Positions 12,308 to 27,354 of a stretch of 64,000 nucleotides of DNA are shown in pieces. Both the position numbers and the translations under genes were made by a program. The stretch's first letter is position 1; each line of letters opens with the position of its first letter. Source of the stretch: Sycon ciliatum (taxonomy: Eukaryota; Porifera; Calcarea; Leucosolenida; Sycettidae). A model generated the notes under the pieces. The model did not search any database, was not told where the DNA came from, and saw only the letters and a program-made list of their open reading frames with translations. The DNA lies in contig NC_088646.1 in assembly GCF_964019385.1 (NCBI RefSeq), forward strand, positions 11,688,447-11,752,446. Reading direction: 5' to 3'.

Positions 12308-15300
12308 TTACGCCCGAGAAGCTAATATAAGCTGCTGCTTCTGCTCCTGAAAGCTTAGTATTTTAGTCGCCTTCATTCGGCTGGATTTCGCTGGCGAGGC
12401 CGAACTCTGCAGACAAACACAAGAAAATACATCAAAAGTCCAAAACCACTACTGTGTCAATGCATGGTACAGTATACAACTACGCCAGCAGCAAGAGCTC
12501 TCCAAGAAGTCGAACACTCAAGCAGTTCATTTCAAACGGGTTTGCTACGCCAAGTTAGCGAACGGAAACACACAAAGAGAGAGTATAGTGGTGCAAACAA
12601 CCTCGCCTGGACGGGAACGTACCTTTTTGGGTGTGGCCGCTGGAGCTGCCCGTGTTGGTTGCGCTGGCACATCAATATTCAGCCGTCCTTCTAGAATGTT
12701 ACTGATGGTGGTGTCCACAGACTGAGACGTTGCTGAGTGTGGAAATGCATGAGAGCAACATGCAGATACATTACCGGTACATGAAAAAAATTACTACCCG
12801 GAATAATCAAATCTTCACCTAGGTCTGTACATCTCTCCCCATGCAGCTGGAGTCCACAGACATGTATCTTCACAATTCACAACTGAAGAAGTACACTCAA
12901 ATTTCACCGTAACTTCAACACTCAACACCACCACTGCACTTTTAGGCCAATCATACACCATCACCTCATCAACAGCAAGAACTTTCTCGACAACTCAAGT
13001 GTTGAAGTTTCATTAGGAACGAATTGTCATATTTTGTGGCGAGAGGCCCCACAAGACCACTGATAGCAAGAGCCACGGATAATACCGTTTGTTTGCTCTA
13101 TTCAAACTTAGCTCTCCACGAGCTGTGTACATTGAGGTCAAACTGGACACTACTGAGATCACATATCCAACGCCAGAGCGCTTCAAATGCTACCCATCGC
13201 TGGGTGTCCGAGAAAATTCTCTCCTCGCCAGCCATTTCTCTCTCCTTCATCGTAAACATTTCAAATTCGTTTGCTTGAGTTTCTCTTCATGCTGGCCACG
13301 CGCTCAAAGAATGCCAAGGTGACTCAGCATGTCAGGAGAGGAAATCCCCCGCTCAAGGTGAGTCACTCAGAAATTTTCAACTTTTCCCGTGGCTGAAATG
13401 TTAAGCGCGATATATTTGGAATGCGACATCGCAGCTCTTTGCCGATTGTTGCAATGAAAAGCTGAGCTCTTCGGCTTCTTCCTACATACTTCGTTTTTTG
13501 AAATTCCGTCAAGAATCGATCAAGTTACGAATGTTTTAGTGCGTGCAGATGGAAAATAAAAGAATACTACAGTAAATAGTGGATATAACGTGCCCCTTTG
13601 ATTTTCGATAATTTATCACTATATCCGGTGCATCACTATAGCCGATTTGCATGTATGACTGACACATGGCACATGACTGTGCATGAAATGATGCGTACAC
13701 GCTGGAAAAAGCATGAAAAGCAGCCACGTGTACATGTGGCTGCGTACAGCATACAGGGAAGAATTTTCTCTCAATCACGTCTGCTGCGAGATGCATCCAG
13801 GCAACACTGAATCAGTTTTGGAAGAAATGAACTAAATTTGAAGAACAATTGTTTTGTGATCATCACTCTTGATCAGGATATATGATATTTTCCTGTGCAT
13901 TTGATATGGTTTGCTTCCTGAAACCCATCACAATAAGCGATATATCGGTATAACCGATAATAGTGTGTATAGTGATATTTTAGCTGTATTTTTTGTGATT
14001 CGATTTTGATTTTGGCGAGTTCTATCATTATAGCCGGTATATCGTTACACCCGGTCACTTTATAAACGATACTCACTGTACTACTACTATTGCTAGTTGC
14101 AGCGATTATTTCCGGACTCACCAAGATCTCGAGCAACAATATCGTAGGGTGCGTGAGGGAACACCTCCTGGACTTGCTGCACCATGCGCTCATTAGACGA
14201 CAGACCTGGCATTGCATCATATACTGACATTGTACCTGCAGTGAGCATGCCAAAGAAGAACCAATATTGTGGAAAGGAAGAACATGAGAACAGGTTGGGA
14301 TAGACAATCATGTACAGCATAGCATAGATTAGACTTACATAATAATCATGTTTATAGCATAATCTCTTCCCACAACAAGACACACATGCATGCATGCACA
14401 TGCGTTTGAGGTTGGCTTGACGTTTCACAAGCACACGTGTGTGTGCGTGTGTGTGTGTGTGTGCGCGCGCGCGCGCGCGCGTGTGTGTCGGACCACATCA
14501 CAACGTACCACTCTGGCGTTGTGAGGGTTGTCTCTCCGCACTAGCCCGAGACGATTGGTTTTGAGCTTCTCGCTTCACATGGTCGACGAAATCACGGCGA
14601 GTGTGCTGACACACTGGAACGGACAGGGCGTTGGCCATGACCTGAACAAGAGAAAGAAAAAAAGGAGACGGGAGAAACAGAATAGGTCAGCAATGAACAT
14701 ACAGCACTCTCGGAAGAACGATGAGCCGAAGACCGGACAGGCTAGAATTTTATCAGGTATGGGATGCCTGTATGCACATGGTGGGTCAAACTGTATAGAG
14801 ATTTCTAGATGAAAAATAAGAGCGGCCAAGGCTACGACTGACCTGCCCCGTTCTTCAGCACCAGCCAGTAGTATAGTATGCCTAGAATCAAGAGTAAATA
14901 AGCTCCCAAGAGGGCCACAAGCACCTGGGTGAAGTGTAAGAAGAAAAGCCATGGTGCACAAAGTGAGAACGAGGAGAGGCACATGCCAACATAGAAAGGG
15001 TCTCAAGAGTTGCACGCTCCTGGGAGCTTATGTACTCTTGCTAGTATGAGTAGGATGGGTAGAATCGTGCAATACGGGTACTATGGGTACATGTGCAGTC
15101 ATGACAAAAGAAATCCAACCCATGTGCCGAGAGCAGCGCCAGGGCTCATGCAGCCCTCGGATGGTTTTTTTGGACCGTGCATGTTGTACTAGTAATTGAA
15201 ACGGAAACGCGGAGCTACCTTTGACTCCCGGGGCGGCTTTCTTTGGCCACGACTGTAGTATGGGTACTGTACCTTTGAGATGGGTGTCACAAATGTATAA

Positions 15301-16340: not shown

Positions 16341-17098
16341 GAGAGAGACAGAGACAGAGAGAGAGAGAGAGGCACAGAGACAGACAGACAGACGGAAAGA
16401 GATAAAAGAAAATTAAAGACTACTTGTACTGGCAGTGCAGAAGCTAGCTTACCTCACATGAAATGCAGTAAACGGAACGAACAAGAAAAAGAACAAGTCG
16501 GGAATGATGGAGCTGTGGAAATAATGCTGTACACGGAACAACACAGAACAAAGAACCATCAGGTGAGGCATTCAGAGAAGGCTCCGAGGAATGGGAAATC
16601 TGTTTCGCATCTGAAATTCGTGTTGCACACATCAACTCTTTCAGCGAGTACGGTGTGCAGGGTTAGCACTTAGAAAGCAAGTCAGTCCAAGAAGGAGCAC
16701 ATAGTGAAGTTGCAAGGCATATTCTGAGAGCCATTGGAGCACATAGTGAAGTTGCAAGGCATATTCTGAGAGCCATTGGAGCACATAGTGAAGTTGCAAG
16801 GCATATTCTGAGAGCCATTGGAGCACATAGTGAAGTTGCAAGGCATATTCTGAGAGCCATTGGAGCACATAGTGAAGTTGCAAGGCATATTCTGAGAGCC
16901 ATTGCAAGAGGCCACATGTATCCAAGGTAAGCACAACAGAGCTACGTACCGGTGCGATTGGGAATGGTCGCCATGAAGTGATGACAATCTTCACGCAAAT
17001 GCAATGGAAAAGTAAGAGCAAAAAAACACATAAGCACACACAAATACACTAGCCCTCCTAGCAAACATAACTAGCCAACACTGGATGAACACACACAC

Positions 17099-17139
<41 letters not shown>

Positions 17140-20100
17140 ACATACACTTCTAAGTGGAAAGGATTGAGAAAAGGTCTCATTCAATAGACATCATAAGGTC
17201 TCAAACAGCACCATTACCAAGAAGACAGGGCTACCATGTCCTCAAAGCGAACATGTACCAAAGTGCACCAACCCACAGCGGCCCAATTACATCTGCAACA
17301 AACTCACCGGTCGAACACTGGACTGTACGGAAAACGGCCATTGTCTGTAAGATGATACAGAAGACAGGGCAAGACATACAAACCATATCAATATACGAGT
17401 ACAAGTTCTAGGCATTCAGTACTCTCACCATCTCCACTGATGTAATCTGTATGATCAAAACAGCTGCATGGAGGAATTGATGCCAGTGTCTTATGCAACT
17501 ACATGTATTTGTACCTAATTGAAGTCATGTAACTGGTGCGGTGAACGAGGTCAGCCAAAGAGTGCATGTGTTGTGTGGAGTACGGATTCAATGATGAACA
17601 ACTTTAAGGTTGCATCAAGGGACAGTCGTGTATGACAAAATATCAGTGCACTACAGACAGGAGGACTTACTTGAATGCCATCAGAGCTGTACCAGTGTTC
17701 ACACCATTCTCAGGGTGTGTTAGTACGGGCAATGATGAAGTATCTACAAGGAACAAGAACTCACGCACGCACAAGCACACACACACACACACTCACGCAC
17801 GCACACACACACGTGCACCCACACATCCACACACATGCACACAAATCCAGTTTTAAGCATGCACATCAAGATCAACAAACCGACAGAGTACGCATAGTCC
17901 ACCTGGTGAGAGCACAGTCCGTGGCACATGTCCTCTATCTCCTCAACTCAACTATACAAGCCAGAGCTCAACATACATGGCCGCCATACAGCATAACAGA
18001 GGTATGAAAATTTGTTCATCTCCCCATGAAGAAATAACGAAAGACCTTTCTACCCAGTCGTATGCCACTGATCAGACTGACAGCAAGTCCCCCCCCATGA
18101 TCGACATTCATATTTGGGCCATGTGACTTCTGCAACCCCGATCGTACAAAGAGAGAGAGAGAGAGCCCTGTGAGGTGAATGCCTGTTGATTGGCGTTATT
18201 GTGCCACATGTTGCAATACCTTGCAGGTGGTTTTGTAACCGCTCGGTGAGAGGTACTGGTCCCTCTGACACAGCATACGGACCATGGCCCATGGTATTAT
18301 GCATTACAGGACATCGCGATGGCTCAATGACCTAACAGATAGAGAACAAACAAAGAGCACAGGCAAAATTGCAGAATGGCTCAGACCACGCAGTGGTTGC
18401 CAGCTATTCTGGATTATATGAAGAATGCGATGTCGAACATATCAACGTGTTTGGCCTAGTTTCCTAGCATGTGACAGCTTTTTTGTAGTGAATAATTTAT
18501 GTTTTATTTTGTTTTTGTGCGTTTTCATGCGCATGCTTGTATAAAATAGCCCGTGTTACCCTTCAGCCAGTTGGCCTTTTGTATTGCGAGCGTTGGAGAA
18601 CATAAGGGCGGGCACGGGTGGGACGTTGATATGTTCGACATCGCATTCTTCATATAATCCAGAATAGCTGGCAACCACTGCGTGGTCTGAGCCATTCTGC
18701 AATTATATTTCAGAATGCTCTGTCTCCATATCAACGTGATTTTGTAGCTTTACTGTCAGTGGTTGACAGCGTCTTTTGGCGGGATAGGACCGCATTGGCA
18801 AATGAGATATCATGTTGAGGCTTATAGTAAAATTTCTGGAAGACAGACTGACTACTCCAGTCAGCTGCTTTCAGGATTTCATTTGTTGTGACGCCGGAGT
18901 CGGCAGCGGCCGAGGCAGATGCACCCCTTGTGGAGTGTGCCTTGAAGATAGATGTATCAATACCTGCTTGTGAGAGGCAGGATTTAAGCCACCGTGCGAC
19001 CGTAGAGGAGGTCACCGCCTTGTGAGGCCGAATGGTCGCAAGGAATACGCGAGTCTCACCCGAGCGGTGAGGCTTGGTTCTTTGTTCGTATTCCATCAAG
19101 GTTGTGACCGGGCAGAGTTTAGCCTCATCCGGAAATTTAGCAAAGAAGAATTCAGTCAGAGGTCTCGATTGTCGAGACTGTTTTGCGAGGGCACCTGTTT
19201 GAAAGGTTACGCCTTCTGGAGAGAAATGTTGAAATTTAATATCAAGATTTGCTAAATCAACCGACCGGGATGGTCGAGTTAACGCAAGTAGCATGGCAGT
19301 TTTGTGAGCAAGACTGCTCAGTGATAAGTCATTGTTATTGCCCAAAGATACAATATATGACAACACCTGGGCAACATCCCAAGTGGTACTATATCTGGGC
19401 TGTGGGGGTCTTTGGTGGAAAACTCCCTTTAGGAGTCTTATGACCAGGGGATGCTGTCCAGCATCATAGCCATCAATTTTATCATGGGCAGATGAGATTG
19501 CAGAGCGGTAGTTATTGATAGATCTATACTGGTAGCCGTCTTTGAAAAGAGACGCCAGAAAGTTGATTATGACAGAGACATCACTTGAAAAGGGATCTGA
19601 GTCCCGTTCAGAACACCAGCTACTCCATTTGTTAAACAAGGAATCATACGTCTTACTAGACTTCTCTCTCCACGATGCGATGAGGAGGTCTGAAGCCTCT
19701 GTTGAAACTTCATTGCTCGTGAACTTTTTCCGCAGATGTTCCACGCGGCTAGACGAGGGTTTATGTCGGGTCTGTTCACACTGTGTGTGGGTTGGATGAG
19801 GTTGTCCATCTCCGGTAGGAGGAGTGGCTCTGCTATTAACAGCTCCAGCAGAAGCGGGTACCATGGCTGACTGGGCCACACCGGGGCAACCAGTATCACC
19901 TGCGCTTCTTGCTCCTTGACCTTGGCTAAGGTTCTGCCGATCAGGTTCCATGGCGGATTTGCATATCCGTGATATCTGGTCCAATCCAGAGAAAATGCAT
20001 TCGTTTCCATTGCCATGGGGTCTGGCCGCCAGCTGGCAAATAGCGGAAGCTGGTGAGTCAGCCGAGATGCAAACAGGTCCACGTCCAGGGGGCCCATGAT

Positions 20101-23100
20101 CTTGTTGATTACTTGAAAAACTCTTGGATGAAGCATCCAGTCTGATCTGTCTTTCATCGTCCGCGATTCCTCGTCCGCGACTACATTCTTGGATCCTGCC
20201 AGGTGGGTCGCCTGCAGAACTATCTGCCTTTCCATGCACCATGACCACAGATCTCGTGTTAGATGGTTCAGGGTCGCTGACACGGTTCCCCCGTACTTGT
20301 TGATGTACGTCAATGCTGTTGTGTTGTCCATTCTCAGGAGTATTGTAACATTTTTGCGAGATTTCGCAAAGGTTTTCACAGCCAGAAATGCTGCCAGCAG
20401 TTCGAGACAATTGATGTGCATCTCTCTTTCCGAGTGTGTCCAAGGTCCACCCGTGCGGTTGCCCTGACACACCGCACCCCAACCAATTGTCGACGCGTCT
20501 GTTTCTATCACCAGGTCTGGTTTGGGAGACAAAAGGTTCCGGCCGTTCCATTCTGATAGGTGATTTATCCACCAAGATAGCTCGTTCAGAGCTTCTCTTG
20601 TCAGCGGACACGGATGATTGTAGTCCTGACGGCCCTCCTCCAAGGAGTCTTGGAGACAGTTTTGAAGGTTTCTGTAAAACAGAGGAGCTTGCGGCACTGC
20701 TTGTGCTGCATGGTTCAGTTTGCCCAAAAGGCGAGAAACCACAATCGCTGATTGATGAGGCTCCTGATGTAACTTTCTTGCCTCTGCACGAGTTTTCTTC
20801 AATTTCTCGCCTGGGAGTTTCATTGTCATGGTTTCTGAGTTTATCGTGAAACCAAGAAACTCTACTTCCTTGCTGGGAGTGAGTTGCGACTTCGGGAAGT
20901 TCACCACGAATCCCAGATTTTGCAGAAGGAAAATCAGACCGCCCGTGTGGTCGATTGCTTTGCTTTGGCTGTCTGCCATGATCAAGATGTCGTCTATGTA
21001 GATTATCAATCTCAGACCGAGGGATCTCAGAACGACTACTACTGCTCTGGAGGTCTTGGTAAAGACCCACGGAGCTGACGACAGACCGAAGGGCAGGCAA
21101 TTGAACTGGTAGAGTTTGTTCTGCCACACAAAGCGTAGACAGTTTCGATCGTTCAAGTCCATTGGGATCGTGAAGTAGGCATCCTTCAGATCGACTTTTG
21201 TCATGAAGTCTCCCTGACGAAGCAGGTCTTTCAGCATGTGAATTCCCTCCATTTTGAAATGGACTGGTTCTATGAATTGATTCAAGGCTTTGAGGTTTAT
21301 TATTGGCCTGATGGCTCCGTCCTTCTTTGGGACTGCAAAGAGTTGAGAGATGAAACTGGGGGGCTCCGCTCCCATTATTGTGGGCATTGAAACTTCTGAA
21401 ATTGCCCCTTTGTTGATCATCGAGATTACCTCGGAAGAGATTTTTGTTCTCTCTTCCTCTCGAAACACAATCTCTCGTGGAGGGTGAGCCTGAAAAGGTC
21501 TCTGCAACCACTGAATCCTGTACCCTTGAATACAGTTCAAGACCCACTGGTCTGAGCTTATTGCCTTCCAATTCTCTGCAAACATTGCTACTCTCCCCGC
21601 AACTTGGGGTCGTTGAAACACAACAGTCTCCGTCATGTCTTTGACACACATTTGTTTCAGAGCACTCACAACAGAGGACATTGGATAAGGTTGAGCAACT
21701 TTTATTTCCTTTAGAGGAAGGGGTAAAGGCGATGCATTCTCTGAGCTCACTTGCTGGGCTCGCGGCTCCTGTCGCTCTGGTTGAGTGGTTTCCGGTTGCC
21801 GCCGAACCGGAACTGATTGCCGTGACCGTTGTAGGGTCGAAAACGGCTGGTGTTGTTGAAGTTGCCCCGACTCGAGTGGCCTCCCCGAGGGGCACCGGTT
21901 CGGCCTCCACGAAAAGACAAGCCAGGTGAAGACTTGCCACGAGTGGAGCTGGAGGCTTGAGAGAGACACTTGATCTCCTCGTTCCGTTCTTTGGCTCTCT
22001 TGGAGAAGCCCTCTCCGAACAACTGAGGGGCAGACGCCTTGTAGATGGGATCATCCTCAGCCATGTCGGCGAGATCCCGATTCATGCACATGATTGCATT
22101 TCTTCGCCTGTCTCTGTTCAGGTACATATTGGCGTTGCCGATAAAGGCCAGAGCAGTCCTGCATGCCTCAACGGCCTCCCCCGCGGTCAGGGTATCCTTT
22201 TGTGCCTCTTCAAGCACGTGAGTCAAAGGACCCACAGCGTCAAGGAGCAAGGCCTGTTGCTTAGACAGGGCCTTGTCACGCGACTTCGTCGCAGGGTGAA
22301 GACGAGATTTAATCATCTTGTCCATCAACGGCGGGGTAGCCACGTCAATCCGTGGACGCCCGAAACGACTACGCCATTGGCGTCGAACTTCGTTCGAGGT
22401 GGAAGCAGTAAAATGCTCTTGAAAAAACTCCAAGGTTTCCGAAGACACCTTGAAGTCTGTGCCAGACTTGTCCAACACATTTGAGTCCTCCATCTCCTCC
22501 TCGGACTCGTAGTCTGACGGAACGTCAGCATTGCGGGTTTTACCCGGGGTTGATGAGGCGCTTGGCGCCAGAACGGAAAACGAGGCACTTCGTGCCGGGT
22601 TGGACATTGGTCGAGCCGCTTCCAGAGCAGACACTCTCTCCGCAATGTCAGACATATTTGATCCAATATGCTCCACCACCTGCGTCACCTTCCCAAGCCG
22701 GGAGATCATCTCCGTCATCAATTGTGTCTGCGATGGCTGACCAGCAGCATCAGACGCGTTATCAGTGACATGATCCATGATGAGAATGGAATGCAGGCGT
22801 TCAGCAGATAAGCAAACAGGAGGCGATTTCAAGCGAGCTAGAAAAAAGGCCAACTGGCTGAAGGGTAACACGGGCTATTTTATACAAGCATGCGCATGAA
22901 AACGCACAAAAACAAAATAAAACATAAATTATTCACTACAAAAAAGCTGTCACATGCTAGGAAACTAGGCCAAACACGTTGATATGGAGACAGAGCATTC
23001 TGAAATATAATTGATGATTCATGGGACAACATCTTTACAGTGACCAATATGGTTCAGTGGTGTATACAATCAACTACATTTGCACAATGTGACAATGGGA

Positions 23101-26051
23101 CAAGCAACATATTGCACAAATTGAAAACACACCCACCATCACCGCTGAAACCCAGAATGATTTGGATTGGCTTCGCACCATTCCACTCCCATTGGTGCAC
23201 TGTTATGCACAGCGATATCAGCACCCATTGCCAGATGCAAATACTAGTAACTTTCCGTTACTCAGGAGTACCCACACTCAGCCTGGTAAATGTATCATTC
23301 ATTTCTACAACATGATTAATAGCATCTCCTCATCGTTACCAAGCTCATGTTACATCTCGTACAGCAGGAGGAAAGCAGCTAATGCCATCCTCGAATTCTA
23401 ACGCATTCCGGCTAAAGAATCAAAGCCTGCCAACTCACCGCAACGCAGGGAAGGAGACTTTCCACAATACAGTGGTCGAGTAGTGTGACATGGTTCGCCA
23501 CAAGTACCTGAGTGAAGTGCAAGAAGAAGCCATAGCGCACAGAGTGAGAATGAGGAGAGGCACATGCCAACATAAAACCATGCACCTTGACTCAGGTGCA
23601 GAATGTAGAGTTGCAAAAAGGCAAGGTCACAAGTCGGGTCAAACAAGACAATGCAGGCGTGCAGGCATGCATGATATACAGCTATGTAATACAACACTTA
23701 TCCATCCACACTTCTCTCTCTCTCTCTCTCTCTCTCTGTCTCGCACACCCATAAGCGCTCCCCAAAAACACACACATATACACATACACACACAACCTGT
23801 GCGATTGGTGCAAAATAAAAGTAAGTGCGTTCAGCTAACCTTGGATGACTGCTCCTCCTCAGCGCCGAAGCCCTCTGACGTGACGACTAATCCCAGGCCA
23901 GGCTGAACACCACGAAACCACCACCTAGTGGTAACACCATGATGCCATATAGTAAATAGGGAGCAAGTCCTACTGGCAACGAATACCAATGGCATGTGCA
24001 TCTAGGAATACTAAAGCAAGTACAATAACAGCTGCATATGTATTATAAATGACAATTCGCCGGTAATGACAGAACTTTTATGCTGGGAGCAAAGTCCCAT
24101 CTAACTGCGTACACTGAACTTCACATATGGCGACTATGCAAGCAATGGCAATTCGCGAGAAAACCATTTTTTCTTCTTTGAATGAATGCACAACACCAAG
24201 GACTGTGTGCAGGCAAATAAGCACGCACTAGCAGCATGTTGGTGTGAGTAATCAGCCTGAGTACCAGGCTGTACAAAGATTCTTTTCAGTGCGCTTCCCT
24301 CGAATATTGATCGCTGTTCCTGCTCATTGAAATATGAAAATTTCATATAAAATTTCGTGAGTAAAACACTTCGTAAGTACTTCGAAGTAAGGACATTGCC
24401 GAATGGCATTTATATAATACAGTCTGTATCGGCTATAGCGTACCCTTTTGATTTCCGTGATTTTATCACTATAACCGATGCATCACTATATGCGATACGA
24501 TGGATTTTTTTCGATCGACACATGAAAGGCAAGGAAATACTTCCAGCATGGCGTTTTGACAAATGAGCATGCTGCATAGATGACAGTGCCCGCATTTCCA
24601 TAACAAAATTATGTTATGTACGTGTGTGCTGTATCACTATAAAAATAAGCAACGTGAAGAAAGTAAAAAGATTGGGCCCTTGATATTATTGCAACATGTA
24701 TTTTAAAGTTATCACTATAGCCGATTATAATGTAGCGTGTTATGCATGTTTTGATTCTTTGTTGCCATCATAATATCCGATATATCATTACATCCGATAA
24801 TATTGGTTATAGTGATATTTGTACTGGATAAAATACGTTTTGCTTTTGATACTTCGTACCAATATCACTGTAGCCGATATATTCTTATATCCGGTCACTC
24901 TATAGCCGATACAGACTGTACTCGCAAAGTTGACTGTTTGAAGTTCAGCCCTCACCATCGTCTACACGGATTTCAAAAGCGTCGACCTCCATTTTGAAAA
25001 CATGGTGGCCGGCCGCGCTACCCGTAGTCGCACGTGCCCACCGCGAGCTTTGAGCTAAAGATCATGTCGCCCACTCATTTTCCTGTGTTTCCCCATTTCT
25101 TCGAACTCGCTCAGCTTTTGCTTCAGCTTTTGCTTCAGCTTTTGTTTCGCTCGCACTCGTGCTTCAGCTCCACGCTGTAGTCTGAGTTTAGTTCTCTTGT
25201 CTTCTTCCAGCAGAATACTGCAAACTCTACAGCACGTCGAGCTTCTCCTAGAAGAGTTTCTTTTGCGTCGAGGCAGACTGTCGATCGTTTCAGTCCTATC
25301 TTACCGTCGTCTCATGAGCGCCCGAAAGCAACAGTATCTATTTTCTTGGCGTTCCATTTTCTGGCGAACTCATTCACCTACTACTTCTTCCTTTATGAAA
25401 GCTTCAGGTGGCTGAGTTCTCCCACTAGCGACAATCATGCCTTGGAAAAGAACAGGATATTTCTAAGGTATATACAGCCAGTGCAGTGATGTCAGTGTAC
25501 TGCACTGCAAAAATCACCTGCATGTACTCCGCGTAGTTGTTGTTTGTTTTGTCGAGAAAGAATCCCTTTCGCACTCGCGCGGGCCGCGAGGGCGCAGCAC
25601 GGAAACGGGTCTATTGAATTCATTTCTTGGTCGATTTTGACAACCAATACGTCGTTGTTTTTCTTTTTTCACTGGCTATCCTTTCTCCGCTTCCGAATTG
25701 CGATGCCGTCCACCTGTAAAGCCTTGAAGTGAAACGAGTGGAGGCCGGTTTCGGAGGTAATTTTCGGCCAAACAGCAATCAAATCGAAAAATTCGAAGCG
25801 GACGATCTGTTGGAATCTATCGAAAGAAGACGTTGGTCCATAAAAAATCTTTGGAAACTACACCGTATGAACCAAGGAATTACGGTAAGTTTGAGAATTT
25901 TGGTACATTAGCTGTACGCTGATTGGTCGATTAGCGCGACCGTTGAGAAACGGGCCAGTGACGCTTTGTACAGCGTTGGTGAGGGCTGAAGTTTATCATG
26001 CATTTCCAAAAAAAGGTGCACCCAAAGTTAACACATACAAACACATACAAA

Positions 26052-26764: not shown

Positions 26765-27354
26765 GGTAATCATGCAGTTTAGGGTCCCAAATTATTTCGC
26801 ACTTTCCCAGTGTTCAGTGTACTGTCACACGCGTTTTCAGTGTACTTTCACTATGCTTCTTCTTTTCTCGTGTGAAAGTTTTGTTTCCTTTGTCAAAGTT
26901 TTGTTTCCTGTGGATTCTGCCTGGCTCACGCATCATCTCTGACGGCTGGGCCGCATACGCGCAGATCAGGAACATCGACGGTGGCGTATACCAGCACGAT
27001 GTCGTCGTCCACGACGACAACTTTGTTGATCCGGACGACCGAACGATCCACACCAACAACGTGGAAAACATGTGGATGCGGGCCAAGCGCCAGCTGAAGC
27101 GCAACTTCGGCACCTCGCGAGAGTTGTTCCCGACGTACCTCTGCGAGTTCGTGAGGAGACAGAGAGTTCGCGCGGAAGACAACACGTTCGGCTCCCTGCT
27201 CCGCAGTGTTCACCAGCAGTACCCAGTCTGATCTGTCCTCGGTTTTCATGAAAATAAAGTTCATGATGTGAAAGTACACTGAAAACGCGTGTGACAGTAC
27301 ACTGAACACTGGGAAAGTGCGAAATAATTTGGGACCCTAAACTGCATGATTACC
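26765..27354 (+). mobile_element. Merlin-type DNA transposon, internally deleted
   Basis: 590-bp unit with terminal inverted repeats of about 85 bp that match nearly perfectly. They begin GGTAATCATGCAGTTTAGGG on the left and end in its reverse complement at 27354. The flanks carry the 8-bp direct repeat AATAATAC (26757-26764 and 27355-27362). Merlin elements make 8-9 bp duplications and encode a transposase related to bacterial IS1016/ISXO2. Only the C-terminal part of that enzyme remains. Confidence 0.92.
26920..27231 (+). pseudogene. Merlin/ISXO2-like transposase, C-terminal remnant
   Basis: About 104 codons in the Merlin element, ending in TGA at 27229. Recognisable are RIISDGWAAYAQIRNIDGG (second catalytic Asp in SDGWAAY), IHTNNVENMWMRAKRQLK (third acidic residue, Glu, in NNVENMW) and a closing helix (FPTYLCEFVRRQR). 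The N-terminal DNA-binding part and the first catalytic Asp are missing, so it cannot be an active enzyme. GC content is visibly higher than in the flanks. Two direct repeats of 'AAAGTTTTGTTTCCT' (near 26875-26910) mark the probable deletion junction. Confidence 0.88.

Follow-up and report, generated by a model that had tools for sequence, protein, structure and literature searches.

The 64,000-bp stretch of the Sycon ciliatum genome analysed here (the window; positions 11,688,447 to 11,752,446 of contig NC_088646.1) contains a young full-length DIRS1-like retrotransposon on the minus strand, inserted in a 5107-bp intron (18332-23438, minus strand) of an AUP1-like gene. The element belongs to a known kind and has a less usual trait, a leader intron, and the window copy lacks this intron, very probably due to passage through a spliced transcript. 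Between the two ATT cores that form the junctions with the host, at 23009-23011 on the left and 18367-18369 on the right, the element measures 4639 bp (18370-23008), or 4638 bp (18371-23008) when counted to the C preceding the shared A. The latter limits are those of a preliminary description of the locus, which had taken AATT as the shared core. Since the base preceding the left core is a T in the close genomic copy L009, the core has to be shortened to ATT, which adds one base (18370) on the right.

Both ends carry an inverted terminal repeat, whose conserved parts of 143 bp (left, 22844-22986; right, 18438-18580; given on the minus strand) are identical at 143/143 bases. The outer 22 bp of the left repeat, up to 23008, differ from the right end, which has an outer extension of its own (18370-18437). 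An internal complementary region (18623-18741, minus strand) is complementary to both outer ends: 82/82 bases pair with the 3' end (18623-18704 with 18367-18448) and 41/42 with the 5' end (18700-18741 with 22972-23013), the single mismatch being the third base from the edge. The two halves overlap at 18700-18704, and the region overlaps the conserved repeats by 11-12 bases per side. Thus the near-identical repeats and the match of the internal region to both ends, described before, are confirmed. A TATAAA motif (22879-22884, minus strand) in the left repeat, 57 nt before the splice junction discussed below, is the presumed sense promoter, and the right repeat carries the mirror motif at 18540 on the plus strand, pointing inward. 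By analogy to DIRS-1, antisense RNA over the recombinase gene may possibly start there. Split direct repeats of the PAT/Ngaro type are not present, as the terminal repeats are inverted and no direct repeat longer than 25 nt was found in 17800-23800.

All three frames reported earlier are open on the minus strand. The gag ORF runs from the ATG at 22778 to the stop at 21747 (343 aa) and has no Pfam match. The reverse transcriptase (RT)/RNase H frame is open at 22050-19567 (827 aa from stop to stop, first ATG at 21681) and includes a clear RT domain (RVT_1, 6.6e-24), followed by matches to two RNase H models that stay below the Pfam cut-off (RT_RNaseH, 0.0016; the other 0.0038). In a comparison with PDB sequences, RT and RNase H both aligned to 8r0s, and RT to Ty3 entries, with the Ty3 RT among the best matches. 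For the tail after RNase H (19567-20230), no Pfam family was found; judging by a DLFASR...NPPW motif, it may be methyltransferase-like. The tyrosine recombinase frame is open at 22081-18731 (1116 aa from stop to stop, first ATG at 22054), with the catalytic part within the last ~390 codons and the remainder being an open frame over RT. Its match to Phage_integrase (5.7e-5) lies below the curated cut-off and no PDB sequence matched, and the translation holds the HSTR motif, which is named in PMC3266345. Together with the inverted repeats, the internal complementary region and the 3-bp core common to both junctions, RT/RNase H and the tyrosine recombinase support the assignment to DIRS1-like elements. 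No relatives were detected in IMG/VR and GTDB genome contigs, nor among phages for the recombinase, at the sensitivity used.

Within the window, blastn and tblastx found no further copies of the element. In the 538-Mb assembly (313 contigs), a 2-kb core query gave at least 63 matches (40 of 62 first-look candidates were scored). Among the core matches listed, five are full-length at 99-100% identity, the window copy included, and three further pieces at 99-100% come from two loci; the remaining longer ones lie at 67-70%, and short ones reach 94%. The six close copies that form family A with the window copy comprise three of full length (L009, L011, L012), two without one end (L010, L014) and one that is rearranged with an internal gap (L013). 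We also considered the gap of L013 as a second spliced intron and rejected this, as its border bases, judged by eye, do not start with GT. The three frames begin and end at corresponding positions in the window copy, L009, L011 and L012, apart from a recombinase frame that is 27 bases longer in L011. Each of these four full copies has ATT at both ends, next to flanks that seem, by eye, to have nothing in common. ATT also precedes the left ends of L010 and L014, and the exception is the rearranged L013, whose right end reads AACT.

The divergence between these copies is very low. The window copy differs from L009 at 4/4638 positions, from L011 at 19/4636 and from L012 at 21/4638, so that the three other full-length copies with the same open frames are 0.09-0.45% different from it; L010, L011, L012 and L014 differ from it by 0.21-0.45%, and all 15 pairs among six A copies (L013 left out) by 0.09-0.69%. 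L013 has 99.1-99.2% identity to the window copy by BLAST, i.e. a difference of about 0.8-0.9%. Three bases are shared by the window copy and L009 and absent from the other copies compared, and two are private to the window copy. The proposed search for copies above 98% identity was therefore successful, and these closest copies together with the identical repeats support the recent insertion that the preliminary description had suggested; the refuting outcome named there, with only old and diverged copies, did not occur. The description of the element as intact holds for the three frames only, since relative to its relatives it lacks one segment.

This segment lies between the left repeat and gag and is present in 6/6 close copies, with a length of 117 bp in five of them and 118 bp in L013. 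It reads GTAAGT...TTTCTAACC...TTCTTGTAG and thereby has a GTAAGT start, a CTAAC motif and a TTGTAG end. At the corresponding junction of the window copy (22827/22828, minus strand), ...CTCGCTTGAA is directly followed by ATCGCCTCC..., and the gap from L009 to the window leader can be placed in one way only, exactly as GAA/GTAAGT...TTGTAG/ATC. Out of 4638 possible 117-bp deletions of L009, 18 have GT-AG borders and just one combines a strong donor with YAG, which is the observed gap. The conserved GT-AG borders in diverged copies and the precise absence in one copy point to a spliceosomal intron. Very probably, this intron was lost by way of RNA, so that the window copy would be a retrocopy made from a spliced transcript. 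This reading is carried by the six closest copies. As the nearest of them, L009, has the intron and private bases are few, the loss looks recent and most likely happened on a short branch.

The intron is not restricted to family A. Core similarity led to 18 other loci (L009-L026; six A and twelve B or B-like), of which 17 have it, and for L015 no recognisable leader was found within the fetched stretch. Seven more loci (L027-L033) all hold a complete intron; these were chosen by a match to the exon-donor pattern and hence do not form an independent count. A genome-wide scan for this pattern yielded 37 sites, 30 of them exact and 7 with one mismatch (12 of the 37 not read in letters), compared to one for a reversed control. 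In an alignment of eight representatives from four groups (A/A', B, C/E and D), the intron is 80-118 bp long with 33-53% identity between groups, and GAA or AAA/GTRAGY and GTAG/AYY are kept while the rest is scrambled. Immediately upstream of the donor, 40 bases have diverged less (49-95% identity). The CTAAC branch-like motif is found in A and most B copies only and is altered or absent in C/E leaders. L027 (G000:C2:13606350-13607350) has the DIRS leader with its 80-bp intron twice in tandem. Family C (L029/L034) was dropped as an intact comparator because of a large internal deletion.

Several points weigh against this interpretation. Downstream of the acceptor, the untranslated sequence has diverged about as far as the intron (28-62% identity between groups), so that low intron identity alone is no proof. 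The branch-like motif is not universal, being lost or changed in the D group and in L023, L027, L029 and L033. A T of the window copy at one leader site corresponds to C in both L009 and L014, which misfits a simple pairing of the window copy with L009 and would need rewriting or a double change. The window copy is the single intronless copy known. Besides, splicing is deduced from DNA, all copies come from one assembly, and the B copies in the comparison belong to a defective family.

For the proposed route, we infer the transcription start, the 3' end and the packaging of the element RNA. RNA polymerase II would initiate roughly 30 nt downstream of the TATA motif, close to the inner border of the left repeat, yielding a transcript with a short first exon whose leader intron could be excised by the spliceosome of the host. 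Since the intron persists in diverged subfamilies, most transposition would use RNA still holding it, either unspliced sense or antisense RNA, and in the case of the window copy a spliced sense RNA would have been reverse-transcribed along the same route. At each cycle, the right repeat would serve to rebuild whatever precedes the RNA start within the left repeat, and the missing outer left repeat would be restored from the right repeat together with the internal complementary region, which could supply the ends absent from the RNA. Finally, the recombinase would join the circular DNA to ATT in the AUP1 intron. In four A and seven B copies, the agreement between left and right repeats extends to the same point, which lies 39-41 nt past the TATA-like motif and 15-16 nt ahead of the donor, and in the seven B copies a T/G variant within the repeat is the same on both sides of each copy. 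Such left-right agreement is expected if one repeat is rebuilt from the other at each cycle. L009 has one left-right difference, 32 nt after the start of the TATA motif and thus at or just past the presumed RNA start. In L011, six bases upstream of this start differ between left and right, most simply as a later change.

The retention of the intron allows more than one reading. Tentatively, and with the odds rather against it, the leader intron may serve as a sorting device as in retroviruses: the intron-holding RNA would be packaged and copied, the spliced RNA would be the messenger, and the window copy would represent a rare escape. Less probable still, though compatible with the loss of the intron through spliced RNA, is a usual template consisting of antisense RNA from the right repeat, in which the intron is unspliceable, with the window copy as a rare product of the sense mRNA. 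The inward TATA motif of the right repeat fits this idea, as do the promoter activity of the right inverted repeat described for DIRS-1 (PMC4482531) and a like proposal made for Penelope (PMC3846280); unspliced sense RNA, however, accounts for the retention just as simply.

Other explanations concern the absence of the segment itself. The element might have arrived with the intron still present and have lost it at this site only afterwards, through gene conversion from spliced RNA or cDNA; transcript-templated repair is discussed in print (PMC12065846). We regard this as quite improbable, because it needs an extra event and the copy, with only two private bases among the copies compared, is so young that little time was available. 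An ordinary 117-bp DNA deletion that happens to match the intron borders is slightly less plausible again. Deletions do occur in A copies, as the missing ends of L010 and L014 and the internal gap of L013 demonstrate, but the unique placement with exact GT-AG borders and no microhomology, the strength of these borders, which only this one of 4638 such deletions of L009 has, and the recurrence of the same borders across subfamilies speak against it. Least credible is an error in assembly or polishing: near-identical repeats are error-prone, yet six near-identical copies kept the segment, and removal of an exact GT-AG unit would hardly be expected unless RNA reads were used in polishing. A retrocopy of a spliced transcript thus stands as our preferred reading.

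Besides the leader intron, our data also bear on the overlap of the coding frames. Outside gag, no stop interrupts the recombinase frame over 648 RT codons, and we compared this with 10000 shuffles of synonymous codons, counting stops in the other frame. Shuffling the RT codons gave a mean of 24 stops in the recombinase frame and zero stops in 0/10000 cases, and when the codons of the recombinase frame were shuffled, the RT frame had 8.8 stops on average, again with zero stops in 0/10000. The recombinase frame is maintained open over RT far beyond random expectation. In the controls, the N-terminal part of gag has 10 and 14 stops (9.5 and 15.6 expected), the recombinase core 10 and 26 (9.5 and 21.1 expected), and the third frame over RT shows a stop excess (55 compared to 44.2 expected). 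The RT frame likewise has no stop in the final 100 codons of gag, compared to 4.5 expected (30/10000 shuffles reach zero), which hints at RT translation from upstream of its first ATG at 21681; no -1 slippery heptamer for a shift from gag to RT was found in 22081-21741. Over the same codons the recombinase frame is uninformative (0.9 stops expected, 2587/10000 shuffles at zero). Between A and one B copy (L016), the recombinase-frame amino-acid identity in the overlap is 45.6%, with change concentrated at the third codon position of RT. This weakly suggests, B being defective and represented by one copy, that in the overlap the openness of the frame is conserved more than its sequence. A long ORF overlap is reported for half of 28 described DIRS elements (PMC3266345), so our result supports a known trait, which in the family of the window element looks selected and not accidental.

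The second DIRS family, B (L016-L026, L032), is about 69% alike to A in the core. Its outer ends are mostly 93-96% like A, and its body about 68-73%. When gaps (up to 283 columns) are disregarded, seven full B copies are 0.07-0.96% apart at aligned positions, and they have ATT on the left in 7/7 and on the right in only 3/7. Frames were examined in twelve B copies, and the five compared have in common a broken RT region and a recombinase without about 150 residues. Judged by its sequences, family B has moved recently, most likely in trans with the enzymes of an intact relative, by analogy to BARE2 with BARE1.

The host gene lies in the same orientation as the element, both being on the minus strand, as stated in the preliminary description. 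Its intron of about 5.1 kb is confirmed as well by flanking exons (23507-23439 and 18331-18220) with fitting phases, and exons 23507-23439, 18331-18220, 17743-17671 and 17344-17308 can be joined with consistent phases and splice sites. The name AUP1 is our assumption from the motif order of the gene pieces. The CUE domain passes the Pfam threshold (22.6 bits, cut-off 21.1), its PDB matches to the AMFR and AUP1 CUE domains are weak (E 0.06-0.63), and the joined acyltransferase part has no Pfam match. Without the element and one core the intron would measure about 465 bp, and 38 pyrimidine-rich intron bases (18369-18332, ATT included) follow the element. With a simple splice-site score, the AUP1 donor ranks first in the stretch (5.1, next 4.4) and the acceptor first narrowly (6.2, compared to 5.8 at 21333 inside the element). 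We therefore dropped the idea that the element must break AUP1 splicing, although the margin for the acceptor is small. Sense AATAAA motifs inside the element at 21706, 21301 and 18508 make some premature 3' ends possible. Within the AUP1-like gene, 16694-16904 consists of five perfect copies of a 42-bp tandem repeat. What appears to be a second copy of the sequence around the start of exon 23507-23439 lies about 8.6 kb downstream, with similar translations (FYVGMCLSSFSLCA...) from 14835-15027 and 23440-23600 (minus strand). Upstream of the presumed AUP1-like N-terminal piece, an ORF at 26770-27228 (plus strand) encodes an IS1595/ISXO2-type transposase (DDE_Tnp_IS1595, 8.2e-9).

The anatomy of the window element is comparable to that of other DIRS1-like elements, i.e. 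Dictyostelium DIRS-1 and the animal elements described by Piednoel et al. (2011; PMC3266345), with three ORFs, RT/RNase H, tyrosine recombinase, inverted repeats, an internal complementary region and a long ORF overlap. The sizes of element, repeats and internal complementary region fall within the ranges given there, and ATT termini are the commonest in Table 3 of that work. In contrast to those elements, the family of the window copy has a conserved leader intron and a probable spliced retrocopy. Introns in retroelements are known as such: Penelope-like elements keep introns while transposing (PMC3846280), although they are a different class with another RT and endonuclease, and splicing of retrotransposon RNA with separate RNA pools is described for BARE1/BARE2, copia and Ogre (PMC3735527), which unlike the window element are LTR elements. 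BARE2, to which we liken family B, is the defective partner carried by BARE1 (PMC3735527). Searches of open-licence literature, a scope outside which the classic DIRS papers fall, brought up no title or abstract opening on introns in DIRS elements; the word intron is absent from the main text of PMC3266345, PMC9210276, PMC3783388, PMC2685390 and PMC6681497, and the intron passages found in PMC5890265 and PMC8547959 concern host genes or virophages.

A genomic copy that lacks precisely one intron provides natural evidence that a spliced RNA served as template, and for that event the template strand would be sense. To our knowledge, the main ground for assuming an RNA intermediate in DIRS elements is their anatomy. 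At the same time, the leader intron kept across subfamilies raises the question how an element that copies itself from RNA avoids intron loss. If the leader intron indeed acts as a sorting device, the window copy, without the intron and any signal within it, would be a poor or even dead-end parent, and a retrovirus-like split of RNA fates would exist in a tyrosine-recombinase retrotransposon.

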